Source: Bacteroidia bacterium | GTDB lineage: Bacteria; Bacteroidota; Bacteroidia; J057 | Length of the DNA: 64,000 nt | Direction of reading: 5' to 3' | NCBI GenBank assembly: GCA_022760475.1 | Contig: JALEFZ010000037.1 | Location: 1 to 64,000 of the forward strand | Shown here: one piece after another, positions 47,924-63,147 of the stretch | Position numbering within the stretch: position 1 is the first letter of the stretch | Layout of the letters: every line of letters begins with the position of its first letter | Translations under genes and position numbers: made by a program | The notes under the pieces: generated by a model | Told to the model about the DNA's origin: nothing | The model's database searches: none | Seen by the model: the letters and a program-made list of their open reading frames with translations, nothing else

Positions 47924-48811
47924 ATGCAACTAACTATCCAGAATTTATCAAAAACATATCCCAATGGGGTACAGGCTTTGAAAAATGTAAACCTGGAAAT
48001 TCCTACAGGAATGTTTGGCCTTCTTGGCCCCAATGGAGCAGGTAAATCTACACTGATGCGTACCATTGCGACATTACAGGAAGCAGACGAGGGTAGCATC
48101 CAGCTGGGAGAACTTGATGTTCTTCGACAAAAATCTGAGGTCAGGAAAATTTTGGGATACCTGCCACAGGAGTTTGGTGTCTATCCCAAGGTGCCTGCAG
48201 AAATTCTTCTTGACCACCTCGCAGTCCTGAAGGGAATCACCAACAGCCGTGAGCGAAAAGAAGTCGTTCAAGCCCTTCTACATAAAACCAACCTTTACCA
48301 ACACAGAAAGAAAAACCTTGGGGGATACTCAGGAGGGATGAAGCAGCGATTTGGGATAGCCCAGGCCTTGCTGGCGAATCCAAGGTTGATCATCGTAGAT
48401 GAGCCCACCGCAGGTCTTGATCCCGGCGAAAGAAACCGCTTCCACAACCTTCTGGTAGAACTTGGCGAAAACGCTGTGGTCATCCTTTCTACACACATCG
48501 TAGATGATGTAAAGGAATTATGTACCGCCATGGCCATCATCAATCATGGAGAAATTCTGATGACAGGCAACCCCATTGAAACCCTCAAGAGCATGGAAGG
48601 TAAGGTCTGGAAGAAGAAAGTAAACAAGGCAGATCTTGAATCATATAAGCAGAAATACAATGTCATCTCTGATAAAATGATTTCTGGTAGCCCAGTCATT
48701 CACATCCTGAATGAAAATGATCCAGGTGAAGGTTTCATTTCCACAGAGCCAAATCTGGAGGATGTTTACTTCTCCCACATCTTTAATCATAAAGTACCTC
48801 AACCTGCCTAA
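47924..48811 (+). CDS. ABC transporter ATP-binding protein
   Basis: The 295-residue ATPase has Walker A GPNGAGKST (35-43), Q-loop GYLPQEFGVYP, signature GGYSGGMKQR (about 133-142), Walker B LIIVDE (E160) and H-loop STHIVDD. Its C-terminus (about 225-295) is an extension typical of CcmA/NatA-type exporters. It is followed after 10 bp by the permease/M1-peptidase fusion, its natural partner. The start is ATG 47924; an upstream GTG adds 13 residues outside the family pattern. Confidence 0.93.
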   Translation: MQLTIQNLSKTYPNGVQALKNVNLEIPTGMFGLLGPNGAGKSTLMRTIATLQEADEGSIQLGELDVLRQKSEVRKILGYLPQEFGVYPKVPAEILLDHLAVLKGITNSRERKEVVQALLHKTNLYQHRKKNLGGYSGGMKQRFGIAQALLANPRLIIVDEPTAGLDPGERNRFHNLLVELGENAVVILSTHIVDDVKELCTAMAIINHGEILMTGNPIETLKSMEGKVWKKKVNKADLESYKQKYNVISDKMISGSPVIHILNENDPGEGFISTEPNLEDVYFSHIFNHKVPQPA

Positions 48812-48821
48812 CCCATCAAAT

Positions 48822-51800
48822 ATGCTACTTAGAATTACACAATTTGAATTGAGGTACAGGTCAAAGCGTCCCGCAACCTACCTCTACTTCTTCGTCATGT
48901 TCATTGTCTGCTTTTTTGCAGTGGTTTGGGAACAACTTTCCATTGGAGGGGCGACAGGGCAAGTCAAAGAGGATGCAGCAGCAGTTATTATGAACCAGTC
49001 TGTCACCATGTCTTTGATAGGCTTGTTTATCAGTTCAGCCATCATGGGCGTCTCCATCCTGCGCGATTTTGAGCATAAAACATCTGCCATGATGTTCACA
49101 GCTCCAATCAAAAAGCGGGATTACCTTTTTGGAAGATTCCTGGGGTCATTCATAGTTCTAGCATTGGTTTTGACAAGTATTCCCCTTGGTTTGATGCTTG
49201 GAAGACTTACTTGTGAATTATTACCCCCACCAGCAGGAGACATGGAAAGGTTCTTACCTGTTTTCCATCCTGAATTTTACTGGCAACCCTACTTCATGTT
49301 TATCCTTCCTAATGCTTTTATCAGTGGAGCTATTTTCTTCTTGAGTGGCGCCTTAAGCAAAAGGTTACTTTTTGTTTTCTTACAGGGAATCGGATTATTC
49401 TCGCTATACCTGATGACACGTCAGATGGTAGGAAGGCTGGAAGACAGGGAGCTAGCTGCACTTTTGGACCCATTCGGCTTAAGGCTTTCTACTGTCATAA
49501 GCCAATATTGGTCTATCGCCGAGCAAAATTACCAAATGATTCCCTGGGACGGTTTGGTCATTCAAAACCGATTGTTGTGGATAGGGATAGGGATTATTTG
49601 TATGATATTGACCTACTTCCTATTTACCTTTACCACCCCTTCCAAAAAACAAAAGAAGAAAAAAACTTCTACAGATGGGTACTCTTCGGATGGGGTAGAA
49701 ATCCCTACTGGCATGAGCCTGGCTTTTGATGGGTTCCAGATTCAATACCAAAGAATTTCTGCCCTGGTCAAACTTTACTATCGCGAAATTGTACTCTCCA
49801 TTCCTTTTATCGGTATTGCACTTTTTGGATTCATCATGCTGGCAGTGAATTCAAGAAGTATGGGAGAAGTTTTTGGTACCCCCACTTTTCCCACTACTTA
49901 CCTTATTCTGGAACTTTTGACTGGTTACTTCCTCTTCTTCTTTATCATCATCATATTCTACTCTGGCGAGTTGATCTGGCGAGAACGAGACCTGAAAGTA
50001 CACCAAATCTATGATACACTGCCCATCCCTGACGCTGTTGGATTGGTAAGTAAGTTCCTGGCCTTCGTTTTGGTACATGCTACATTGTTGCTGTGCCTGA
50101 TTGTTCTGGGAATCACGATCCAGGCCTCAAAGGGATACTATAATTTTGAATTGGGAATTTATTTCACCGAGCTGTTTACCAATACGTTTATCTCCCTGAT
50201 TCTCTTCACCTTACTCACCTTCTTTGTCCAGGTGATAGTTAACAACAAGTTCCTGGGACATGGCTTGATGATTCTCATATTTATTGTAAACATCATCCTG
50301 GCCGAAGTTGGAGTTGAACATACCCTTTTGCGCTTTGACAGTGGAGACCTTGATGGATATTCTGACATGAACCTGTATGGGGACTCTTTCTTCAAATTCA
50401 GTTGGTTAAAAGCATACTGGTTTGGGTTTACCATGCTCCTATTTGGCTTGGCGGTAGCATTTTCAGTTCGAGGTACGGACACCATTATGAAGACCAGAGC
50501 AAAATTGGCAGGAATGCGTTTCGTTCGTCCTCTACTGATTTTTACAATCGCTGCAGTCCTCCTTTTTGCGGGTACAGGGATTTACATTTACTATAATACT
50601 ACGGTAGTCAATGAGTTTGCCAAGTCCGACACCCAGGAAAAAGATCAGGCAAACTATGAAAAGGAGCTGAAGCAATATCAATTCCTGAATCAACCCAAGA
50701 TTGTAGAAAACAACCTGCATGTAGATATCTTCCCCAAAGAGCGAGATTATGCTGTTGAGGGTGAATACATCCTCAAAAATAAGAGCAAGGAACCAATCTC
50801 TGTACTCCATATCCAGTCCTCTGTGGATGAAGACCTGACCTTTGAGCCTTTTGAGTTTGAAATGCTGGATTCATTGAAGCAAGAAGGAGAAGAGTTTAAA
50901 TTGGCTCAAAACTTTGAACGCTTTAGTTATCTGATATATGAGCTTCCCAGGCCCCTGATGCCGGGTGATAGCCTCAGGATGTTATTTTCAGGAAAATTTG
51001 ATACCAAAGGATTTAAAAATGGCGGAACAAACACTGCAGTTGTTCATAATGGTACTTTCTTCAACAACTTCAATTTCCCATCCATTGGCTACAATCCATC
51101 ATTTGAATTGGGGTCTGATGACGACAGGAGGAAAAATGACCTTCCAAAGAAACAGCGTCAAATGGAGCGAACAGATCCGCAGGGAATTATGCTGCAAGAC
51201 TTTATTTCGGATGCGGATTGGATTCGCTTTGATGTAACCATGAGTACCAGCAATGATCAGATTGCCATTGCACCGGGTTACCTCCAAAAGTCGTGGAATG
51301 AAGGAGACAGGCGTTATTTTCATTACAAAATGGACAGACCCATTCTGAAATTCTACTCCATGATTTCTGCACGTTATGAAGTAATGCGTGATTATTGGGT
51401 GAGGCCAAATGGTGATTCTGTCAGCCTGGAAATTTATTACCATAAGGGACATGAATACAACCTGGACAGGATGATGGACGGTATGAAGCATTCCTTGGCT
51501 TATTTCTCCGAAATCTTCAGCCCATTCCAGTACAGGCAAATGCGAATCATGGAGTTTCCACGATATTCGAGTTTCGCGCAATCCTTCGCCAATACCGTTC
51601 CTTTCTCTGAAGGGATTGGCTTCATAGTAGATGTGGATGATGAAAAGGATGTGGATATACCTTATTATGTAACCTCCCACGAGGTTGCGCACCAGTGGTG
51701 GGCGCATCAGGTAATCCCGGCCAATACCAAGGGTGGTACCATGATTGTAGAAAGCCTGGCCCAATATTCTGCTCTGATGCTCATGAATAAGCATTACGGA

Positions 51801-52457
51801 CCGGAAAAAATGCGTGACTTCCTGAAGGAGGAGTTAGACCGCTACCTGGGTGGACGTAGTTTCGAACGCAAAAAAGAAATGCCGCTGGTAGAAGTGGAGA
51901 ACCAGCAGTACATCCACTATGGAAAGGGAGCCGTTATCTTTTATGCCTTGCAGGATTATATCACAGAGGATAGCCTAAACAAGGCATTGAGGAAATTCAT
52001 TGATGAATGGGCCTATGCCGAAGGCCCCTACCCTACTACCCTTAACCTGATGGAATATATCTATGATGTTACTCCGGATAGTTTGACTTCCATTGTTAAG
52101 GATATGTTTGAAAGGATCACCTTCTATGAAAATAAAATGTTGAAGGCTGAAATGGTAGAGCAAAGTGGGCAATTCAAGGTAGATATGACCTTGAATACCG
52201 TAAAAATGCTGGCAGATAGCCTTGGTAATGAGCAGCCCATTGACCTAAAAGAATGGATGTATGTAGGCTTGTATGGCAATGGTCAGAAAGGAAAAGATAG
52301 CCTGATCTATATGCAAAAGCATTACTTTGACTCAGACACTACCCAGCTTTCTATCAGTCTGGATAGTAAGCCGACCAAAGCCATCATTGACCCCATTAGC
52401 ATCCTCATTGACAAGCATCCTAAAGACAACTCAAAGACCATATCTGTTGTCGACTAG
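48822..52457 (+). CDS. ABC transporter permease fused to M1-family aminopeptidase
   Basis: The 1211-residue protein joins two parts. The N-terminal region (about 1-600) has two sets of roughly six transmembrane segments, the ABC-2-type permease. The rest is an extracytoplasmic M1 metallopeptidase with zinc motif HEVAHQWW (His953, Glu954, His957) and the third ligand Glu977 in VESLAQYS. This fusion is known in Bacteroidota but its substrate is not. The ATPase gene is 10 bp upstream. Start ATG 48822 is used; an in-frame ATG at 48711 lies inside the ATPase gene. The C-terminal 30 codons recur in a degraded copy just downstream. Confidence 0.9.
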   Translation: MLLRITQFELRYRSKRPATYLYFFVMFIVCFFAVVWEQLSIGGATGQVKEDAAAVIMNQSVTMSLIGLFISSAIMGVSILRDFEHKTSAMMFTAPIKKRDYLFGRFLGSFIVLALVLTSIPLGLMLGRLTCELLPPPAGDMERFLPVFHPEFYWQPYFMFILPNAFISGAIFFLSGALSKRLLFVFLQGIGLFSLYLMTRQMVGRLEDRELAALLDPFGLRLSTVISQYWSIAEQNYQMIPWDGLVIQNRLLWIGIGIICMILTYFLFTFTTPSKKQKKKKTSTDGYSSDGVEIPTGMSLAFDGFQIQYQRISALVKLYYREIVLSIPFIGIALFGFIMLAVNSRSMGEVFGTPTFPTTYLILELLTGYFLFFFIIIIFYSGELIWRERDLKVHQIYDTLPIPDAVGLVSKFLAFVLVHATLLLCLIVLGITIQASKGYYNFELGIYFTELFTNTFISLILFTLLTFFVQVIVNNKFLGHGLMILIFIVNIILAEVGVEHTLLRFDSGDLDGYSDMNLYGDSFFKFSWLKAYWFGFTMLLFGLAVAFSVRGTDTIMKTRAKLAGMRFVRPLLIFTIAAVLLFAGTGIYIYYNTTVVNEFAKSDTQEKDQANYEKELKQYQFLNQPKIVENNLHVDIFPKERDYAVEGEYILKNKSKEPISVLHIQSSVDEDLTFEPFEFEMLDSLKQEGEEFKLAQNFERFSYLIYELPRPLMPGDSLRMLFSGKFDTKGFKNGGTNTAVVHNGTFFNNFNFPSIGYNPSFELGSDDDRRKNDLPKKQRQMERTDPQGIMLQDFISDADWIRFDVTMSTSNDQIAIAPGYLQKSWNEGDRRYFHYKMDRPILKFYSMISARYEVMRDYWVRPNGDSVSLEIYYHKGHEYNLDRMMDGMKHSLAYFSEIFSPFQYRQMRIMEFPRYSSFAQSFANTVPFSEGIGFIVDVDDEKDVDIPYYVTSHEVAHQWWAHQVIPANTKGGTMIVESLAQYSALMLMNKHYGPEKMRDFLKEELDRYLGGRSFERKKEMPLVEVENQQYIHYGKGAVIFYALQDYITEDSLNKALRKFIDEWAYAEGPYPTTLNLMEYIYDVTPDSLTSIVKDMFERITFYENKMLKAEMVEQSGQFKVDMTLNTVKMLADSLGNEQPIDLKEWMYVGLYGNGQKGKDSLIYMQKHYFDSDTTQLSISLDSKPTKAIIDPISILIDKHPKDNSKTISVVD

Positions 52458-52694: not shown

Positions 52695-54032
52695 TTAGTT
52701 ACACAGACAACAGTTGTTCTGTGCAAGATTTGGGTTACGGTCGATGTCTCTCTGTGGAATTGGCCAAACATCATTACAGGTATCATATCCAGTAATTTCT
52801 GAAGTTTTACCAAGACGACGTAGGTCAAATAGACGGTGAGGACCTTCCATTGCAAGCTCTACCAAACGCTCCTGAAGGATCAAGTCAACATAGTTGCTAG
52901 ACTCAAGGGTTCCATCAGCAAGACCAGCTCTGTTACGAACCTGGTTGTAGTAGGTATTTGCTTTGGTAAAGTCTCCGGTAGCTGCAGCCGCTTCAGCAGC
53001 GATCAAGAAGATCTCAGCATGGCGGATGAAGTATACAGGGTCAGTACCTGCTCCCTGAGCACCACCAGCGAAGTCCTGGTACTTCACACCGTGTACGATG
53101 GAAGAAACCGCTCCAGTAGTATCGATCGAACGATCAAAACGAGTATCGCCAGCTTCATAAGCAGCAACCAGTTTAGCAGAAGGAACAAGGTCGATACGTC
53201 CTCCTCTTTCGTCAGGACCAAAGAAGAAAGGAAGAGAGTTTCCATCAGTGCTGATGAACTGCAGAGAGAAGATCTGGTCAGCAAGATAAGGTACTGTAGT
53301 CAAATCAATACCAGTGATAACCTCTTCTGCTTTGCTCAAAGCAGTAGCGTTGTCTCCTCTGTAAAGTGCAATTCTAGCCTGAAGTGCAGTTACCGCAAGG
53401 GTATTAGCAAATCCAACAGAAGTTGTAGTGATGTTAGCTTCTGCCTCTCCAAGGTCAGTATCAATCTGATTGTAGATATTCTCTACAGAAGACTTAGGCA
53501 AGTTCAAAGCCTCAGGAGTTACCGCACGAGTAGGTTCAGTAATCAATGGTACCTCACCGAAGTAGTTTACCAGGAACCAGTAAGTAAGGGCACGAACAAA
53601 TTTTGCCTGACCTACTGCATCGTTTTTCTCAGCATCTGAGAAAGTAACGTCTTCTACAGTAGGGATGATTTCGATCACGTTGTTAGCAACGTTGATTACA
53701 TCATAGAAGTCAGTAAATACATCATCCAAAGTTCCGTTTGAAGGGAATACGTTGATGTTCATGAATTCCAGACGAGATGGGAAAGTTCCTACGAAATCAG
53801 TCTCATCAGCGTAGAATGATGAAAGTCCGATGTATCCGTCGTATACAAGAGTTGGATCCTGTAACTCATCATAAAGACCATTCAGAGCTGCCAAAGCAGA
53901 AGACTTGGTCGTAATCCCACCGTCAGCTGGGATAGAGTTGATGGGAGCTAGCCCATCCAGTTCAATGGCTTCACAAGCAGGGAAAAGAATCGCTGCGAAG
54001 CTTATGCTAAGAATTAGAATTATTTTTTTCAT
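52695..54032 (-). CDS. RagB/SusD family nutrient-binding outer-membrane lipoprotein
   Basis: The 445-residue lipoprotein (lipobox ILFPAC, Cys20) shows the SusD helical TPR fold: SSALAALNGLYDELQDPTLV, QAKFVRALTYWFLVNYFGEV, IFLIAAEAAAATGDFTKANT and RLVELAMEGPHRLFDLRRLG near the end. SusD proteins form the hinged lid on the SusC transporter and capture glycans or peptides. The cognate SusC gene is 27 bp upstream. The substrate is unknown; no glycosidase flanks it. Confidence 0.94.
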   Translation of the reverse strand: MKKIILILSISFAAILFPACEAIELDGLAPINSIPADGGITTKSSALAALNGLYDELQDPTLVYDGYIGLSSFYADETDFVGTFPSRLEFMNINVFPSNGTLDDVFTDFYDVINVANNVIEIIPTVEDVTFSDAEKNDAVGQAKFVRALTYWFLVNYFGEVPLITEPTRAVTPEALNLPKSSVENIYNQIDTDLGEAEANITTTSVGFANTLAVTALQARIALYRGDNATALSKAEEVITGIDLTTVPYLADQIFSLQFISTDGNSLPFFFGPDERGGRIDLVPSAKLVAAYEAGDTRFDRSIDTTGAVSSIVHGVKYQDFAGGAQGAGTDPVYFIRHAEIFLIAAEAAAATGDFTKANTYYNQVRNRAGLADGTLESSNYVDLILQERLVELAMEGPHRLFDLRRLGKTSEITGYDTCNDVWPIPQRDIDRNPNLAQNNCCLCN

Positions 54033-54059: not shown

Positions 54060-57000
54060 TTAGAATCCAAGATTGATACCTCCACCTATGGTACGGGCTT
54101 GAGGATAAGTCAAGAAGTCAGTACCCTGGGCACTGTTAGAGTTACCAAATGTAGATACCTCTGGATCAAACCAAGAATAGTTAGTAAACGTCAACAGGTT
54201 CTGTCCGAAGAAGTACACACGTACTTTCTCAGTGTTGAACTTGCGAGTTACGCTATTTGGCAGGGTGTAAGAAAGAGTTAGGTTCTTCAACCTGATGTAA
54301 GAAGCATCCTCTACGAAACGGTCAGAGTTACGACGGTTCTGGTTAGGGTCTCCGGCAACAGCTCTTGGGAAATCTTCGTCATCCCCTTCCTGAGTCCAGC
54401 GACCTTCCCATGCACGCTGAGTAACGCTAAACAATGAAGAGTGCATACCTTCAGCAAACTCACCGTTGTTGTTGTAGATGCTGTTACCCCAGTTGAACTG
54501 GAAGAAGAAGTTCAGCTCTACACCTTTGTAAGAAAGGATGTTAGTGATACCACCTGAGAAAGGAGCAATCGCAGTTCCTAGGAAGGTACGGTCAGCGTCG
54601 TTGATAATTCCGTCTGGTGGCAAGTCGTCATCAGTGTTAGGAATTCCGTCTGGTCCAGGACCACCACTGATATCTTTGAAACGGATATCACCAGGGGCAG
54701 TACCATTAGTCTGGAATGCGTGAGCATCAATCTCTTCCTGGTTCTGGAAGATTCCGTCAGTCTGGTATCCGTAGAACGCACCTAGAGGCTGTCCTTCCGC
54801 AATCCTTGATCCAAATCCAGCGTCAATTGGCTGGCCGTCGAATAGCTCAGTAATTCTGTTCTGCAGGATACCGCCATTGAATACGATCTCCCAGTTGAAT
54901 CCGTCTCTTCCACCAGCTACAGGTAGGAAGTTCAACAAGATGTCAATACCACGGTTCTCCATTCCACCAATGTTCTGGATTACAGTTGTAAATCCGGAAG
55001 TAGTTGGGATAGGACGATCCAAAAGAAGGTCAGAAGTTTGCTTCAAGAAGAAGTCGATAGAACCACCGATCCTTGAATCCAGGATAGCAAAGTCAACACC
55101 GATGTTGGTCTGAGCAGTAGTCTCCCAACGAAGATCAGGATTACCCAACTGCGTAGGTACGATACCAGGAACACCTGATCCATCGATCACATAGTTTACA
55201 CCAGCAGCACCCAACAACGGTAGGTTGTCGAAGTTTCCGATCTGGTTGTTACCATTGATACCGAATCCAGCTCTCAGCTTCAACTCGTTAAAGAAGTCTC
55301 CGATGAAGTCTTCATTGTGAAGTTTCCAAGCAGCAGAGAAACCTGGGAAGAAAGCGTATCTGTTGTTCACACCGAATCTTGAAGACCCATCCGCACGTGC
55401 AGTAACAGTCAAGAAGTACTTATCTGCGTAGTTGTATACAACGTTTCCAAAGAAAGAGTTGATTCTGTCTCCAGTAAACGCACCAGTTACACCAGTAGGT
55501 GTAGCACCTGAGCTAAGTCCGGTAAAGTCATCAGTTGGGAAGTCTACTACAGTAGCAGAGTTCTGGTTCTGAGCATCTTCCTGGAAACCAACACCAACAA
55601 GAGCGTTCAAGCTGTGGTCAGAGAAGGTCTTGTTGTAGTTCAGGGTATATTCTTGCAACCAACGTAGACGGCTGGTATTTGCTTCAACCAACTGTCCGGT
55701 AGGAGCTCCATTCAATACTGAAGGTTGGAATTCAGTCTCACGAAGGTCAATCGCATCAATACCTACAGTAGCTTTGAAATCAAGACCATCGGCAATGTTG
55801 TAGGTAGCGTAAGTGTTACCAATTACACGGTTGGTAGTGATGAAGTTTTTGTAGTTCTCAATGTTATTAACAGGGTTGTTCCATCCGAATGCAGATGCGA
55901 AGCTTCCGTCTTCGTTTCTTACAGGGATGGTAGAAGGCCAAAGGATAGATACAGATACTACCCCACGGATGTTGTTGTCATTTCTTTGACGCTGGTTGAT
56001 AGAACGAGTGAAGCTCAGGTTGGTTCCTACAGTGAAACGCTTACCTGCTCTGTGAGTTACGTTCAAACGACCGCTGTAACGCTCAAATCCAGTGTTTCTG
56101 ATGATACCCTGGTTGTTGAAGTAAGAAGCAGAAGTATAGAAGTTAGTCTTCTCGTTACCACCACTAACGTTGAAAGAGTAGTCCTGAACGGATCCTTGTC
56201 CAAAGACAGAATCCTGCCAGAAAGTGTTACCATTCAAAGCACCAACAAGTGTAGTTCTGGAACCGGTGATTTCTTCAAGGAAGTCTCTGAACTGGCCAGA
56301 GTCAGCCATAGGGATCAATCTCCAAGCTTCCTGTACACCGTACTGAGCGTTGAAGTTAACTTTGGTATTTCCAGCTCTACCTTTTTTAGTGTTGATCAAT
56401 ACCACACCGTTTGCAGCACGAGTACCGTAGATAGCAGTCATAGATGCATCTTTCAATACCTCAATGCTCTCGATGTCATTAGGGTTAAGGTCAGCAAGTG
56501 TATTTTGGTCCTGACCACCAACACCTACCTGTGCAAGGTTGGCAGAGATGATAGGTACACCATCAACTACATATAGCGGCTGGTTTGAAGCCGTAATAGA
56601 AGTAGATCCACGAAGACGTACGTCGATAGAAGATCCAGGAGTACCTGAAGACTGAATTACGTTTACACCAGCAACACGACCACGAAGTGCAGTCTGTACA
56701 CCGATACCAGGAACATCAGCGATGTCTTCAGCAGATACACTACCTACAGCACCTGTGATGTCTCCACGACGCTGGGCAAGATAACCGGTAATTACTACCT
56801 CGTCTACACCCAAAATGTCTTCTTCTAGAGTAACAGAAAGGCTTTTTTGGCTTCCTACAACAATCTCTTGAACTTTGTATCCAATGTAGCTGAATACAAG
56901 GACATCATTGCTGTTAGGAACTTCCAGGGTGAAAGTACCATCTGCACCAGTGAACTGACCGACGGTAGTTCCTTTGATAAGAACAGCAACACCTTCCAGA

Positions 57001-57104
57001 GGCTCACCATCCGTACCAGATACTTTACCGCTTACACGGCCTTGTGCCCACGCGATACTTAGCCCCATTGCTAGCATGCATAGCACGAGTAAGATTCTTT
57101 TCAT
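54060..57104 (-). CDS. SusC/RagA family TonB-linked outer-membrane transporter
   Basis: The 1014-residue protein has a signal peptide (ending SIAWAQ) and a carboxypeptidase-like beta-sandwich (about 22-100, GVAVLIKGTTVGQFTGADG). The plug (about 105-240) includes VDEVVITGYLAQRRGDITGA, LRGRVAGVNV and IEVLKDASMTAIYGTRAANG. A 22-strand barrel ends in TIGGGINLGF. TAIYGTRAANGVV is the SusC signature. It moves captured ligand across the outer membrane with TonB energy and pairs with the SusD gene 27 bp downstream. Its leader and promoter resemble those of the second susC. Confidence 0.95.
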   Translation of the reverse strand: MKRILLVLCMLAMGLSIAWAQGRVSGKVSGTDGEPLEGVAVLIKGTTVGQFTGADGTFTLEVPNSNDVLVFSYIGYKVQEIVVGSQKSLSVTLEEDILGVDEVVITGYLAQRRGDITGAVGSVSAEDIADVPGIGVQTALRGRVAGVNVIQSSGTPGSSIDVRLRGSTSITASNQPLYVVDGVPIISANLAQVGVGGQDQNTLADLNPNDIESIEVLKDASMTAIYGTRAANGVVLINTKKGRAGNTKVNFNAQYGVQEAWRLIPMADSGQFRDFLEEITGSRTTLVGALNGNTFWQDSVFGQGSVQDYSFNVSGGNEKTNFYTSASYFNNQGIIRNTGFERYSGRLNVTHRAGKRFTVGTNLSFTRSINQRQRNDNNIRGVVSVSILWPSTIPVRNEDGSFASAFGWNNPVNNIENYKNFITTNRVIGNTYATYNIADGLDFKATVGIDAIDLRETEFQPSVLNGAPTGQLVEANTSRLRWLQEYTLNYNKTFSDHSLNALVGVGFQEDAQNQNSATVVDFPTDDFTGLSSGATPTGVTGAFTGDRINSFFGNVVYNYADKYFLTVTARADGSSRFGVNNRYAFFPGFSAAWKLHNEDFIGDFFNELKLRAGFGINGNNQIGNFDNLPLLGAAGVNYVIDGSGVPGIVPTQLGNPDLRWETTAQTNIGVDFAILDSRIGGSIDFFLKQTSDLLLDRPIPTTSGFTTVIQNIGGMENRGIDILLNFLPVAGGRDGFNWEIVFNGGILQNRITELFDGQPIDAGFGSRIAEGQPLGAFYGYQTDGIFQNQEEIDAHAFQTNGTAPGDIRFKDISGGPGPDGIPNTDDDLPPDGIINDADRTFLGTAIAPFSGGITNILSYKGVELNFFFQFNWGNSIYNNNGEFAEGMHSSLFSVTQRAWEGRWTQEGDDEDFPRAVAGDPNQNRRNSDRFVEDASYIRLKNLTLSYTLPNSVTRKFNTEKVRVYFFGQNLLTFTNYSWFDPEVSTFGNSNSAQGTDFLTYPQARTIGGGINLGF

Positions 57105-57112
57105 AAATAATT

Positions 57113-57143
57113 AGCTTTAGTTTGACGTAATGGAAAAGAACAA
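57113..57143 (-). promoter_or_regulatory. Conserved susC leader element (first copy)
   Basis: AGCTTTAGTTTGACGT (plus strand, 57113-57128) and GAAAAGAACAA (57133-57143) recur before the second susC at 63028-63043 and 63055-63065. In the mRNA they read as ACGTCAAACTAAAGCT next to the start, preceded by TTGTTCTTTTC. They may control translation. Confidence 0.6.
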
Positions 57144-57203
57144 AAGAACTGTAAAGACTTTAAAGACATCCATTAATGCCCCTACTTGAGCCTTTAAGAA
57201 TTC

Positions 57204-57234
57204 CTAATTTATAGACTTGGTCTATAACGACCAA
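57204..57234 (-). promoter_or_regulatory. Candidate promoter of the first susC operon
   Basis: On the minus strand TTG (57234-57232), a 20-nt spacer and TAAATTAG (57211-57204) fit TTG-N20-TAnnTTTG with one mismatch. The predicted leader is about 93 nt. TATAGAC/GTCTATA at 57210-57226 forms a palindrome inside the spacer, a position suited to a regulator. Confidence 0.5.
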
Positions 57235-57504
57235 TCAAATTTTTCACATATACAGGATTTCGCATACCTTCAAAAAGGACTTAAATCCAAAATATTCGGC
57301 TTAAACTGCCAAAACTTTTACTTAACCTGCTTACCTGAACTTAGTCTGAATATTCACAAAACCTTAACGTAAAGGAGGGCCTAAAGAGTTGCTAATCCAG
57401 TAGAAAATGATCAACAACTTATTCCATAAACTGAATTTAACGGGTATTCCATTTGACATTTATACCCTTTTCCTGCCCTTCCTGTATTAACTATTAAGAA
57501 ATAA
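57235..57504. other. AT-rich spacer upstream of the first susC
   Basis: No gene was seen. GGGTAT...ATACCC around 57440-57466 may form a weak 3' hairpin for the hypothetical gene next to it. Confidence 0.3.
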
Positions 57505-58221
57505 TTAACTGTTTTTAGAATTAAGGTAATTGAATATTTTTAGCAAGTCTGACCTTTTCTTGCACTTGATTTTATTCTCCTTCATAAAGGCAGTCGTCCC
57601 TTTTTTTTCCTTTTCAAAAAATGTGATGGCTTCACTTTTCTTTTTAGGAATTCGAATCAATTCACCATTTTTCAGCATGAAATAGGAGTGCTTTTTCACA
57701 AATTTATCCCTTGAACTACCAGCATCATGGGTCGCTACATAGTTTGACCTCAATAGCTCAGTTTCCATTTTTCCAAGTAGAATCAGATCCCCGACTGCGA
57801 TGATCTCAAAAAAACCTAACTGATAGGTATTGACTTTCAATTCCGAATTCAAATCAACAAACCTTCTGTTTCCTGCCGTATGATACAAGGTGAACTCTTT
57901 GATTAGATTGCCAGGAAGAACTTTGACAGAATCGCCATATTGAAGGTCAATGTTATGATTGACCACATCGTACTTGAATTTATACCCGGTCAGCTTACCT
58001 CCACCCTTGGTAATGACTTCTCCAGGGTACCAATCATCCAACCAATAAGTAGTGTTTAATGGATCCTTTGAGCGCAAGTCAAAAACCCGGACTGCTTCAC
58101 CAGCCACCAATTCATTGGCAGGAGCAGAAAACATAGGGTTGGCTCGCTGGGCAAAAGTAGCAGTGAAAGATCCCAGAATTAGTGCAACCAGCAGAAGGAA
58201 AGGAATTGTTTGCTTATTCAT
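57505..58221 (-). CDS. Hypothetical exported protein between the two SusCD systems
   Basis: The 238-residue protein has a signal peptide (FLLLVALILGSFTATFAQ). A beta-rich middle (EVITKGGGKLTGYKFKYDVV, EFTLYHTAGNRRFVDLNSEL) is followed by a basic C-terminal tail (AFMKENKIKCKKRSDLLKIF). The pattern resembles a widespread, unnamed Bacteroidota exported family, and no function can be assigned. It has its own candidate -7 element and is separated from both SusCD pairs. Confidence 0.72.
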   Translation of the reverse strand: MNKQTIPFLLLVALILGSFTATFAQRANPMFSAPANELVAGEAVRVFDLRSKDPLNTTYWLDDWYPGEVITKGGGKLTGYKFKYDVVNHNIDLQYGDSVKVLPGNLIKEFTLYHTAGNRRFVDLNSELKVNTYQLGFFEIIAVGDLILLGKMETELLRSNYVATHDAGSSRDKFVKKHSYFMLKNGELIRIPKKKSEAITFFEKEKKGTTAFMKENKIKCKKRSDLLKIFNYLNSKNS

Positions 58222-58266
58222 GTGCTTGAGGACTATTAGAGAGGAACAATATTATGCAAAGAGCCC

Positions 58267-58274
58267 CAAATATA
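58267..58274 (-). promoter_or_regulatory. Candidate -7 element of the hypothetical exported protein gene
   Basis: TATATTTG on the minus strand is an exact TAnnTTTG match that predicts a leader of about 40 nt. No clear -33 TTG at 17-23 bp was found. Confidence 0.35.
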
Positions 58275-58351
58275 ATTAGAAGGACTTAATATAAAAGTGA
58301 TTTTTGAAGGTGCTTGAAAAATTATACTGCCCTCCAAATATTCATATATAG

Positions 58352-58380
58352 AAAAAGGGGCTTCAAGAAGCCCCTTTTTT
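58352..58380 (-). terminator. Terminator of the second SusCD operon
   Basis: AAAAAGGGGCTT pairs with AAGCCCCTTTTT around a CAAG loop (58352-58380), 33 bp past the susD stop. It is symmetrical and could act on both strands. Confidence 0.9.
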
Positions 58381-58412
58381 ATTCAAATCAAGTTAGTACT
58401 CAGTTTATTCCA

Positions 58413-59825
58413 TTACTGGAAAGACCACAGCTCAGTGTCCAACAAGTCAGGACCCTGGTTAGTTACTGCATTCTGCCATTCTGCATTGTTCAACTGGTTT
58501 TCAGAAGAAGGATACAGGTAACGGCGAGGAATTCCACCGGAAGGATTCAAACCACCTGATCCATTCGCATCAGGAGTAAGAGCTGGATATCCAGTCTTAC
58601 GGTAGTTGGTCCAGGTCTGTAGGAAAGAAACACCATAGTAAGAGAAATACGCCTCTGTGATGATTTTTTCCATTTTCTCGTCATCAGTCATACCCGCAAG
58701 TGCAGAGTTCGCAGTTACGTAATCATCTCCGGAAACACCTAACTGATCCATAGATGCCTGGATAGCAGCAGTCAAGGCAGCCTCAACTTCTCCTTCAGAA
58801 GCACCGGTCAACTGAAGGGCCTCAGCTTCCATAAACTTAAGCTCAACATAAGAGATCAAAGGAATAACCGAGTTGTTCTGCGCCCAGTACAGGTTAGGGT
58901 TTGCACCACTGTGGTAAGACTGGCTGTCAGTGTGAACATAAGAAGTGAATCTTGGGTCTTGATTGTCAATCAGTTTCTGCACAAAGCCAGCAGACATAAC
59001 CAAAGTATTTGGACGCTCGATACCGAATTTAGCCAATGGGTTGTTACCGATCTGGTTGTCCTCAAAAGCAAAGTTAGGCTGTCCAGCGATGCCAGTGAAA
59101 GCATTTCCAAGTGCATTAAGGGCCAGGGTTGCATTATTGGCATCACGCTTGGTCAGGTGCATGTAGTACCTTGCTTTCAAAGCGTAAGCAGTTGCAATCC
59201 AGGAAGCAGCATCTCCACCGTAGATAAGATCGTCAGATCCAGGTCCCAATGGGACTGCAGGCTGGCTCAACAATTCGATAGCCTGGTCAAGAAGGCTCTG
59301 AACACCTCCGTATACAGACTCTTGAGAGTCGTAAGAAGGCTTCAGTGCTGCCTGATCAGTCAAGTTATCAGGAGTCAGCTTGTTGGCGCTGGAGAAAGGA
59401 ATATCACCAAACATGGCAGTTGCCTGTCCAAACTCATTAGCCTGGATAATCTTGGCAATTCCCTCATAGTAAGGCTGACCTTCCTCCTGGGCTTTGTTGA
59501 TGATTGAGTTACAATCTTTCAACACACCAGCATAAAGACCTGTTCTCCAGTAGTTGTTGAAGGTGATCTCAGGCATGTTGTACTGAGTGTACGCAACCTG
59601 CTGAGCGTCAAACCCTTCAAACTGTTGCATGATGATACCCGCAACACGCGCAGGGTTGGCTGACTGGTTGAAAGCAGCCTGAGACAACATTGAAGGCATG
59701 ATCAGCTTCAAAGTTACGTCAGTCTGGCTAGTTGGGTCAATGTTCGTATCTACCAGGTTACACGATGACAAGAACGTAGCAACCGCAATGGTAAGTACTG
59801 CAATTATATAAGTTAATTTTTTCAT
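58413..59825 (-). CDS. SusD/RagB-like (SusD-like_2 type) outer-membrane lipoprotein
   Basis: The 470-residue lipoprotein (lipobox TFLSSC, Cys22) belongs to the SusD-like_2 branch: IMPSMLSQAAFNQSANPARV, MQQFEGFDAQQ, NEFGQATAMFGDIPFS, and later SYVELKFMEAEALQLTGASE and a long C-terminal loop. It differs in architecture from the SusD of the first system. It partners the SusC gene 19 bp upstream. The ligand is unknown; SusD-like_2 pairs are often linked to uptake of peptides or other non-starch substrates, which is inference here. Confidence 0.92.
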   Translation of the reverse strand: MKKLTYIIAVLTIAVATFLSSCNLVDTNIDPTSQTDVTLKLIMPSMLSQAAFNQSANPARVAGIIMQQFEGFDAQQVAYTQYNMPEITFNNYWRTGLYAGVLKDCNSIINKAQEEGQPYYEGIAKIIQANEFGQATAMFGDIPFSSANKLTPDNLTDQAALKPSYDSQESVYGGVQSLLDQAIELLSQPAVPLGPGSDDLIYGGDAASWIATAYALKARYYMHLTKRDANNATLALNALGNAFTGIAGQPNFAFEDNQIGNNPLAKFGIERPNTLVMSAGFVQKLIDNQDPRFTSYVHTDSQSYHSGANPNLYWAQNNSVIPLISYVELKFMEAEALQLTGASEGEVEAALTAAIQASMDQLGVSGDDYVTANSALAGMTDDEKMEKIITEAYFSYYGVSFLQTWTNYRKTGYPALTPDANGSGGLNPSGGIPRRYLYPSSENQLNNAEWQNAVTNQGPDLLDTELWSFQ

Positions 59826-59844
59826 CTTGATTCTTTGCTAGTGA

Positions 59845-62800
59845 TTAGAAGGTTACACGAATGCTACCACCGTAACTTCTGGTATTAGGCATGTTGAAAT
59901 AGTCAAGACCAAACCCGTTTGTTGCACCGGTAAGGTTTGTTTCAGGGTCAATACCAGGATATTCAGTGTTCAACCAAAGGTTACGACCTGAAAGGGTCAA
60001 GGTGATGTCACCAGCCTTTAGAGAGTTAGCAACGCTCTTTGGTAGAGAGTAGCTCAGTGTTAACTCACGTAGACGTACCCAAGAAGTGTTGTAGATACTC
60101 ATTTCAGTGATACCACCGAATCCATAACGGATGAAGTAGTTACCACCCAATCCATTTGCAGGATCAGCATAAGAAACCTCAGTAGTGTTCGCAGATCCGT
60201 CAGCTTTTACACCATCAAACACTACAGTTTGATCACGTAGGTCTCCAGATTGCTTGGAAGTACCGAAGTAGTCAATTACACCACAAGTACCACACCACAT
60301 ATCACCGCCTTGACGGATGTCAACAAGGGCAGATACAGATAGTCCTTTGAAAGTGAAAGTGTTTCTCAAACCAGCAATCCAGTCTGGGTTAGGATTTCCG
60401 AAGATTCGAGTCTGAGGATCCTGTAGAGGCCATCCATTTTCACCGATGATGGTGTTTCCATTCTCATCTCTCTGGAATCCAGATCCGAAGATCGCACCGA
60501 ACTGCTCACCTACAACTACACGAGAGGAAGTTGAGGTAAATCCAGCCAGGAATACCTGAGAAATACCCTCACCCAGTGTGTCAACAGTGTTGGTGAATGT
60601 AGTGAAGTTCAGGTCAATGTTCCATTCGAAGTCTCTATTACGCACAGGAATAGCATTCAATACAACTTCCCATCCCTGGTTGGTGATCTGACCAGCATTC
60701 TGGATGACAGAAGTAAAGCCGGTAGTCGCAGGAAGCGTTACTGAAAGTACAATGTCTCTTGTAACAGAATTGTAGTAAGTCGCATCCAAGCCCAAGCGTC
60801 CCTGGAAGAACTTCAATTCAGCACCCAACTCCAAAGTGGTAGTTGTCTCAGGACGTAGATCAGGGTTGCCCAATGCAGTACTCAATTCGAAAGCGTTGGT
60901 TCCCAAAGCAGGATATCCAATACCGGAGATAAATCCATCACCATCAGAAGTGGCAGAGTTGAAGTAGTTCGCAGTTGCATAAGCAAATGGCGCATCGTTA
61001 CCTACCTGACCTAGAGAAGCACGGATCTTACCGTATGGAAGGATATTGTTATCAGTCATACCCAAAGCCTCAGTGAATGCAAAACCTACAGAAACTGCAG
61101 GGTAGAAAATGCTGTTGGTGTTCGCTCCAAGAGTAGAAGACCAGTCATTTCTAGCAGATACGTTCACAAATAGGTAATTATCATAAGAGAAGTTAGCTGT
61201 ACCGAATACACCTACCAGTTCTCTCTGGAATACACCTTCACCAGCCTGGATGTCAGAAGCATTTGAAATGTGGTAGAAGTCAGGAGCAGCAAGGGTAGTA
61301 CCGTTGAAGCTCTGAGTTACTACTCTGGTGCTAAAGTAGTTGTGTCCTACAGTAGCGTTTACATTTACTTTAGATCCGAAGTTCTTATTAAACTGCAATA
61401 GGAAGTCAGAGTTCAAGTCATTAGAAGACTGGAAAGAGTTGTATACCTCACCTACACTCCATCCTGGGTTGATGTCAAATGCACCATTCCTGCGGTCAGT
61501 GTAGAAGTCAGTTCCCAGTTTATAAGTAGCGCTCAACCAGTCGTTGAACTCATACTTCAACTGAGCATAACCGATGATACGGTTTACATCATCTCTAAAT
61601 GGGTTCTTGTTGATGGTCCAGTATGGGTTGTCATAAATACCATAGCGGTAAGAACGCTGGTCTCCGTTTGAAAGCTCAAAAGCAGCTTTGTCAGTAGGGT
61701 CAGCGTTTCCTGCTCCACCATTGCTGTTGTCAAAAGTAGGAGTGGTACGCAATAGACCTAGCATGATACCATCAAGGTTAGAACCACGCTGGATACGGTT
61801 ACCACCAGAGTTGATGAAGTTAGCAGACATTTCTGCACTCAACTTGCTGTTGATTTTAGTTCCAGCCTTTACTTTGAAAGTACTTCTATTGAAGGTAGCG
61901 TTAGGTACTACACCAGTAGACTGAAGACGACCTCCAGAAATGTAGTAAGTGCTTCTGTTGTTACCACCAGAAACAGACGCGTTAAGGTCAAGGGTGTTAC
62001 CGTTTACGAAGAAATCGTAAGGGTCATAAGCCTCAGCAGGAGTTCCGTCTCCGCTTCCAGCAGCAACAAGGCTACCTCTACTGTCAAATGGGTAATCCTG
62101 ATCACCGTCGAATTCAAGATCTGAAATCGCAGGTCCCCAAGAGAATCCTTCGAAAGTAAATGGACCTCTATAGGTAGGTACGCCACCGATAGGACGTCCC
62201 TGAGCGAAAGAAGACTGACGCTCTGGAAGTTTGTTAACCTGATCTACTGTGTAAGAAGCAGATACAGTTACCCTTGGCTTACCAGCCTTACCTGATTTGG
62301 TTGTGATGATAACCGCACCGTTCGCAGCACGGATACCGTAAAGAGCTGTCGCAGCAGCACCTTTCAATACAGATAGAGACTCAATGTCGTTAGGGTTTAC
62401 GTCAATCGCACGGTTTGACTGGTCAACACCAGCAACACCGTTTCCAGATTCAGAGTTGTCAATGGGTACACCGTCCACTACGAATAGAGGAGCGTTGCTA
62501 CCATTCACAGATACAGATCCACGGATACGGATGTTTGCAGAAGATCCAGGAGAACCTGAAGAGCTTACTACAGTTACACCAGCGACTTTGGAGTTCAATG
62601 CATTAACGAGGTTAGTCTCGCGCGCATTTACAATGTCATCAGATTTTACGTTCTGGATAGAATATCCAAGAGAACGTCTGTTGGCTTCAAGACCGACGGC
62701 AGTTACTACTACCTCGTCAATCGCCAGGAAGTCTGGCTCAAGCTTAACGTTGATGGTAGAACGTCCATCAATGCTTTGCTCAACGGTCTTTTTTCCAAGG

Positions 62801-63021
62801 AATGTGAATAGGAGTGTGGTGTTTCCTTCAGGAACTTCAAGGGTATACTTACCATTGTTGTCGGTAAACATACCTACAGTAGTACCTTTGATTAGGACAG
62901 CTACACCCTGTAAAGGATCCCCAGATTCGGCATCAGTAACAGTTCCTGATACTTTACTTTGGGCAAAAGCTATCCCGATCCCTAGCCCAATAAGGGCAAG
63001 AGTTAGTAATAATCTTTTCAT
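59845..63021 (-). CDS. SusC/RagA family TonB-linked outer-membrane transporter (second)
   Basis: The 1058-residue transporter has a signal peptide (ending GIAFAQ) and a carboxypeptidase-like domain (GVAVLIKGTTVGMFTDNNG). The plug includes VDEVVVTAVGLEANRRSLGY, LNSKVAGVTVVSSSG and LSVLKGAAATALYGIRAANG, followed by a large barrel. A Cys pair occurs in GDMWCGTCGVIDYFG, where most SusC proteins have WNGTRG-like residues, so a disulfide in an extracellular or barrel loop is possible. The partner SusD-like_2 gene follows at 19 bp. Confidence 0.95.
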   Translation of the reverse strand: MKRLLLTLALIGLGIGIAFAQSKVSGTVTDAESGDPLQGVAVLIKGTTVGMFTDNNGKYTLEVPEGNTTLLFTFLGKKTVEQSIDGRSTINVKLEPDFLAIDEVVVTAVGLEANRRSLGYSIQNVKSDDIVNARETNLVNALNSKVAGVTVVSSSGSPGSSANIRIRGSVSVNGSNAPLFVVDGVPIDNSESGNGVAGVDQSNRAIDVNPNDIESLSVLKGAAATALYGIRAANGAVIITTKSGKAGKPRVTVSASYTVDQVNKLPERQSSFAQGRPIGGVPTYRGPFTFEGFSWGPAISDLEFDGDQDYPFDSRGSLVAAGSGDGTPAEAYDPYDFFVNGNTLDLNASVSGGNNRSTYYISGGRLQSTGVVPNATFNRSTFKVKAGTKINSKLSAEMSANFINSGGNRIQRGSNLDGIMLGLLRTTPTFDNSNGGAGNADPTDKAAFELSNGDQRSYRYGIYDNPYWTINKNPFRDDVNRIIGYAQLKYEFNDWLSATYKLGTDFYTDRRNGAFDINPGWSVGEVYNSFQSSNDLNSDFLLQFNKNFGSKVNVNATVGHNYFSTRVVTQSFNGTTLAAPDFYHISNASDIQAGEGVFQRELVGVFGTANFSYDNYLFVNVSARNDWSSTLGANTNSIFYPAVSVGFAFTEALGMTDNNILPYGKIRASLGQVGNDAPFAYATANYFNSATSDGDGFISGIGYPALGTNAFELSTALGNPDLRPETTTTLELGAELKFFQGRLGLDATYYNSVTRDIVLSVTLPATTGFTSVIQNAGQITNQGWEVVLNAIPVRNRDFEWNIDLNFTTFTNTVDTLGEGISQVFLAGFTSTSSRVVVGEQFGAIFGSGFQRDENGNTIIGENGWPLQDPQTRIFGNPNPDWIAGLRNTFTFKGLSVSALVDIRQGGDMWCGTCGVIDYFGTSKQSGDLRDQTVVFDGVKADGSANTTEVSYADPANGLGGNYFIRYGFGGITEMSIYNTSWVRLRELTLSYSLPKSVANSLKAGDITLTLSGRNLWLNTEYPGIDPETNLTGATNGFGLDYFNMPNTRSYGGSIRVTF

Positions 63022-63027
63022 AGAAAA

Positions 63028-63065
63028 AGCTTTAGTTTGACGTTAGTACATGCTGAAAAGAACAA
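63028..63065 (-). promoter_or_regulatory. Conserved susC leader element (second copy)
   Basis: AGCTTTAGTTTGACGT (63028-63043) is identical to 57113-57128, and GAAAAGAACAA (63055-63065) is identical to 57133-57143. The spacing differs (11 versus 4 nt). Identity limited to these blocks points to selection rather than recent duplication. Confidence 0.6.
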
Positions 63066-63116
63066 GATAATCTAATTTCTGTCCCGAATAAGACATACAT
63101 ATAGGTTATCAGTATG

Positions 63117-63147
63117 TTAATTTAGGGAGAAAAAATTATCAATCAAA
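63117..63147 (-). promoter_or_regulatory. Candidate promoter of the second susC operon
   Basis: On the minus strand TTTG (63147-63144), a 19-nt spacer and TAAATTAA (63124-63117) resemble the -33/-7 pattern. The same TTTGATTG and TAAATTA words occur before the first susC. The predicted leader is about 89 nt. Confidence 0.5.

Follow-up and report, generated by a model that had tools for sequence, protein, structure and literature searches.

Introduction

The locus described here raises the question of why two neighbouring susC genes with diverged coding sequences carry identical short blocks immediately before their start codons. The two genes, SusC1 (nt 54060–57104) and SusC2 (nt 59845–63021), lie on the minus strand of a 64,000-nt stretch of contig JALEFZ010000037.1 of a Bacteroidia bacterium (hereafter, the window). 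In Bacteroidota, SusC/SusD systems serve as the principal gates for nutrients. The explanation we favour, with a probability of about 0.6, is that tandem susC genes exchanged a 5' module by old gene conversion, or by a similar recombination, and that the leader boxes have been under selection since. Sharing of SusC front ends recurs in three genera, each with its own sequence.

Identical blocks in the leaders of SusC1 and SusC2

The plus-strand 16-mer AGCTTTAGTTTGACGT was found at nt 57113–57128 and nt 63028–63043. In its gene-strand form, here termed box 2, it reads ACGTCAAACTAAAGCT in the SusC1 leader and ACGTCAAACTAAAGCT(TTTT) in the SusC2 leader, both exact matches, and is separated from the ATG by 8 nt in SusC1 (ATG at nt 57104) and by 6 nt in SusC2 (ATG at nt 63021). 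The 11-mer TTGTTCTTTTC, termed box 1, lies upstream of it on the same minus strand (nt 57133–57143 and nt 63055–63065), at a distance from the 16-mer of 4 nt in SusC1 and 11 nt in SusC2, both words falling within 45 nt of the ATG in both genes. In the SusC1 leader a second GTTCTTT stands directly before box 1 (nt 57143–57149). An earlier, sequence-only reading of the window had described the identical 16-mer near both start codons, the identical 11-mer, the unequal spacing of the blocks and the divergence of the coding sequences, all of which were confirmed, the SusC1 and SusC2 proteins being 30% identical.

Two AT-rich leaders might resemble each other by chance, and the promoter-like words flanking the blocks are indeed at chance level. 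The two main blocks, however, are not: a shared word of at least 16 nt in two 200-nt leaders was obtained in 1 of 20000 Markov simulations, in which the longest shared word expected by chance is 8–9 nt. These simulations, together with the conservation of the blocks in relatives and their specificity for SusC genes, both described below, refute chance for the two blocks and leave it a negligible explanation of the locus.

The flanking words are TTTGATTG (nt 57232–57239 and nt 63140–63147) and TAAATTA (nt 57205–57211 and nt 63118–63124), which had been read as a common promoter layout about 90 nt before the starts. Both words exist in both leaders, but they are located 101–135 nt before the starts, their length is at chance level, the window contains each of them 8 times, and they are unequally spaced in the two leaders (28 vs 23 nt, start to start). 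Accordingly, they were rejected as a meaningful shared layout.

The exact 16-mer has two sites only in the whole 6.86-Mb genome, both before these susC genes, and neither the 16-mer nor GTTCTTT was found in the other SusC leaders read in the window's genome. The 16-mer is therefore not a general SusC control element. The sequence-only reading had proposed a common control of SusC systems and a genome search for the 16-mer before other susC genes; its general form is contradicted by the other SusC leaders read, which lack the blocks, an outcome that this reading had itself named as refuting it. A translational or post-transcriptional function shared by the two leaders is plausible, the blocks being kept in relatives.

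A two-box leader within the family

SusC start regions, 133 in total, were compared in the window's genome (G000), the only one of its genus in the comparison, and in further genomes of the same family, several of which are fragmented; gene starts were chosen by rule. The 16-mer belongs to a two-box leader in which (C)GTTCTTT is followed by AACGTCnAACnnAAGCTTTT beside the ATG. In 18 of the 133 SusC leaders, GTTCTTT, mostly preceded by a C, is found 15–75 nt upstream of the start, with 1 occurrence in antisense and 1 in a control region farther upstream. Along the long stretches analysed, it precedes 1 non-SusC open frame among about 190, a frame that is probably not a gene, most of the SusC genes in this comparison having been recognised by eye. 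As for box 2, AACGTCnAACnnAAGCTTTT, a form related to the SusC2 box, is kept before the SusC2-type genes of G012 and G011, and shortened forms (AAAGCTTTT) are present in G008, G009, G006 and G001.

The two-box pattern retrieved 12 matches inside the family, 7 of them before susC, with 0 control matches, and in the class outside the family it was found at about the level of the reversed control. The other 5 family matches were read individually and fall in coding frames or belong to unrelated genes. Two further candidates were discarded: in G001, a near-match of the 16-mer is part of a coding sequence, and in G006 a GTCAAACTAAA-ATGAAA match stands ahead of a gene for an unrelated secreted protein. 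The contigs of further relatives, which are too distant, do not carry the leader.

In four leaders a perfect TAnnTTTG box, the known Bacteroidota -7 element, is placed 6 nt before the start of GTTCTTT. Because of this spacing and of the preceding C, GTTCTTT is probably located at the transcript start.

The SusC leaders of the family seem to fall into sequence classes, and ACTACTA, for instance, is found in the 133 leaders 13 times in sense and once in antisense. Another SusC class (L280, L266, L041, L283 and L243) has AACTACTA directly before the ATG, in the last 30 nt. Searches of open-access texts returned no publication describing either a conserved box in susC leaders or an exchange of susC 5' ends.

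Leaders and N-termini shared between tandem neighbours

Full-length phylogeny groups SusC1 with the SusC1 genes of G010 and G001, and SusC2 with the SusC2 genes of G012, G001 and G008, with 100/100 support in both cases. Judged by this tree and by their 30% identity, the two genes of the window are old paralogues belonging to well-separated SusC clades.

Before the ATG, adjacent susC genes have 16 nt in common in the window's genome, a different 17-mer in G001 (genus g2) and 30 nt in G011 (genus g9). These words, from three genera, are the three longest among 998 within-genome pairs. The G001 genes sharing the 17-mer are the counterparts of the pair in the window, and the adjacent genes of G011 are 29% identical. 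The fourth longest within-genome match is the 14-mer ATTCTAATCTAACG, which two non-adjacent susC genes of G010 (G010_C1 and G010c; leaders L170 and L158) have in common before the ATG.

Both leaders could also have been inherited, with no exchange, from an ancestral SusC leader held by strong purifying selection for translation initiation. Bacteroidota are a phylum without Shine-Dalgarno signals. Immediately ahead of SusC starts in the family, the words CTAAC, AACCTA, ACTACTA and AAAGCTT are frequent, of which CTAAC, AACCTA and ACTACTA are rare in antisense, and SusC2-type leaders retain AACGTCnAACnnAAGCT across genera, as such selection would produce. On the contrary, neighbours of about 30% protein identity have longer common leader words than orthologues of 53–60%, and the N-terminal mosaic points the same way as the leaders do, so that plain inheritance appears improbable.

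The mosaic is evident from segment identities. Over residues 1–60, SusC1 shows 52 and 62% identity with SusC2, as compared with 29 and 43% with its orthologue G010_C1, and after residue 100 the relation is reversed (42–49% with SusC2, 68–72% with G010_C1). When about 127 SusC N-termini were compared, SusC1 of G000, SusC2 of G001 and gene c3 of G011 each matched their tandem neighbour best; in the ranking for SusC1, SusC2 comes first and G010_C1 39th. The approximately unbiased (AU) test on residues 1–95 rejected both orthologue clades (p = 0.004 and 0.0004) and did not reject the neighbour pairs. The genes thus contain what gene conversion requires, namely a segment that groups the neighbours together, at odds with the phylogeny of the remaining sequence. 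By N-terminal ranking and AU test, the first 95 codons of SusC1 (nt 56820–57104, minus strand), coding for the signal peptide and the CarboxypepD_reg-like domain, are of the neighbour's type; by segment identities and trees, the first 95 codons of SusC2 (nt 62737–63021, minus strand) probably represent the type from which the shared 5' module was donated. The leader and the N-terminus are of matching type, both being SusC2-type on SusC1 of G000 and SusC1-type on SusC2 of G001.

Third codon positions in the modules are near saturation, which makes the exchange an old one, and the leader words are intact. Since they are intact despite this saturation, and since the two islands are unequally spaced in G000, selection on the boxes is needed in addition to the exchange.

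The module proposed to have been exchanged would consist of the short 5' untranslated region (UTR), from near (C)GTTCTTT to the box beside the start codon, followed by the signal peptide and the CarboxypepD_reg-like first domain. Its transfer would have gone from SusC2 to SusC1 in G000 and from SusC1 to SusC2 in G001, with a comparable pair in G011; afterwards the coding part would have diverged to near synonymous saturation, with purifying selection keeping the leader boxes.

Several points weigh against recombination as the cause of the sharing. A recent contiguous conversion tract over leader and coding start was seen only in G011, where near-identity extends from about -60 to codon 4 only, and elsewhere the exchange is too old to show one, third positions being near saturation; the transfer of the leader and that of the domain may therefore be separate events in time. 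The alignment of the N-termini is short, with most inner branches weak, and the clades for the AU test were named after the full-length tree had been seen. Moreover, a further tandem pair of G001 (G001b) has no long shared leader word.

As in other mosaic tandem paralogues shaped by gene conversion, the resemblance between neighbours here exceeds that between orthologues in a single segment; the differences are that this segment belongs to an outer-membrane transporter, of which it comprises the leader, the signal peptide and the first domain, that the exchange is old and that the leader is the best-kept part. A front end bearing a promoter or leader and joinable to different outer-membrane protein genes is also known from the surface-protein shufflons and promoter inversions of Bacteroides (PMC4747536, PMC5729914). 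In the window, however, neither gene is disrupted, both point the same way, and the direct repeats measure only 16 nt. In a SusC protein, the history of the signal peptide and the first domain may differ from that of the barrel, and orthology calls based on the N-terminus can mislead.

Possible role of the leader boxes

With a transcription start near GTTCTTT, the leader would be about 40–50 nt long and would end in box 2 beside the start codon, where box 2 might set translation initiation or be bound in trans. The boxes perhaps act in the mRNA, with roughly even chances, as a translation-initiation or post-transcriptional control giving both SusC/SusD systems the same output control. If tandem receptors swap and then retain a common front end, barrels for different substrates can come to share a single output control, with the leader indicating where the regulator should be sought.

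A trans-acting regulator could, on the other hand, explain the sharing by itself, with no recombination of leaders: a small RNA (sRNA) acting in the manner of FopS or GibS, or an RNA-binding protein, would recognise the box beside the ATG, and both neighbours would track a local regulator while the sequence drifts by genus. In B. thetaiotaomicron, FopS sRNAs repress susC mRNAs at the translation initiation region, with the participation of the RRM protein RbpB (PMC11697453). The position of the box over the translation initiation region is that of the FopS targets in susC mRNAs (PMC11697453). Two RRM_1 proteins are encoded in the window's genome, RRM_1 proteins being thus present in both organisms; the words common to neighbours are genome-specific, and they are intact beside nearly saturated synonymous sites. 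Nevertheless, no further genomic copy of the 16-mer or of its complement exists beyond the two sites, near-matches with at most 3 mismatches are outnumbered by those of the reversed control, nearly all of the inspected near-matches lie in long open frames, and no Rfam family was detected in the window. A complementary sRNA gene was not found in the genome by 16-mer copies and near-matches or by the Rfam search of the window, shorter seeds being outside the reach of these searches. The box is shared by one pair of adjacent genes rather than by scattered targets, and its sequence changes by genus. A trans-acting regulator also leaves the mosaic N-termini unexplained, and as the sole cause of the sharing we consider it rather unlikely. 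A combination of the two, in which an RNA or RNA-binding protein acting in trans co-evolves with a genome-specific leader code of tandem susC genes and reads it, while leader, signal peptide and first domain travel together between transporter genes as a regulatory cassette, is put forward as a speculative extension of the exchange of 5' modules.

GTTCTTT could further be taken for a Nus-factor boxA, bound in the leader by NusB/S10 to set antitermination or translation, as in the suhB leader of E. coli. The core fits the GYTCTTT of the gamma-proteobacterial boxA consensus (PMC5725501), and suhB, too, has a word resembling GTTCTTT close to its start codon, within a short 5' UTR. By contrast, the rRNA leaders of five family genomes carry GTTATTTGACAT or GTTCATTGACAT, vs GTTCTTT plus pyrimidines in the SusC leaders, and the SusC element, which stands before susC genes, lacks the GACA part. 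The comparison rests on these five other genomes, no 16S rRNA having been found in the window's own assembly. As the SusC word is not identical with the boxA of the lineage's rRNA leaders, this analogy was rejected as very improbable. In those rRNA leaders (L173–L182, upstream of 16S rRNA), GTTATTTGACAT/GTTCATTGACAT at the boxA-like place represents a changed base in the usual boxA core.

Two models based on RNA structure are likewise not supported. Against a structured leader of riboswitch type, the folds of six leaders do not surpass those of shuffled sequences (z from -0.7 to +1.8). As for a hairpin in which the 11-mer would pair with ATGAAAAGA (9 and 8 bp for the window's two genes), a comparison of 19 leaders showed that they pair with their own start no better than with shuffled partners (p = 0.36).

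Genes and other features of the locus

SusC1 (1014 aa; PF13715, PF07715) and SusC2 (1058 aa; PF13715, PF07715, PF00593) are each encoded by an open reading frame and score 872 and 665 bits against TIGR04056, both above the cut-off of 368 bits, as SusC/RagA TonB-linked transporters. Each is directly followed downstream by a susD gene, as expected for SusC/RagA members: nt 52695–54032 (PF07980, PF14322) after SusC1 and nt 58413–59825 (PF12771, PF12741) after SusC2, both on the minus strand. The domain order of SusC1, i.e., signal peptide, CarboxypepD_reg-like domain, plug and barrel, is also that of SusC2; no STN domain was found in SusC1.

Between the two SusC/SusD pairs, nt 57505–58221 code for a predicted exported protein of 238 aa without Pfam family, and nt 48711–52457 code for a 1248-aa protein in which ABC-2 type membrane segments are fused to a peptidase M1 domain. 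Finally, a perfect inverted repeat, TTGGTC-GTTATA-GACCAA (nt 57217–57234), with a terminator-like score on the plus strand, is present upstream of SusC1 only; this repeat might serve as an operator or mark where an antisense transcript across the SusC1 leader ends.
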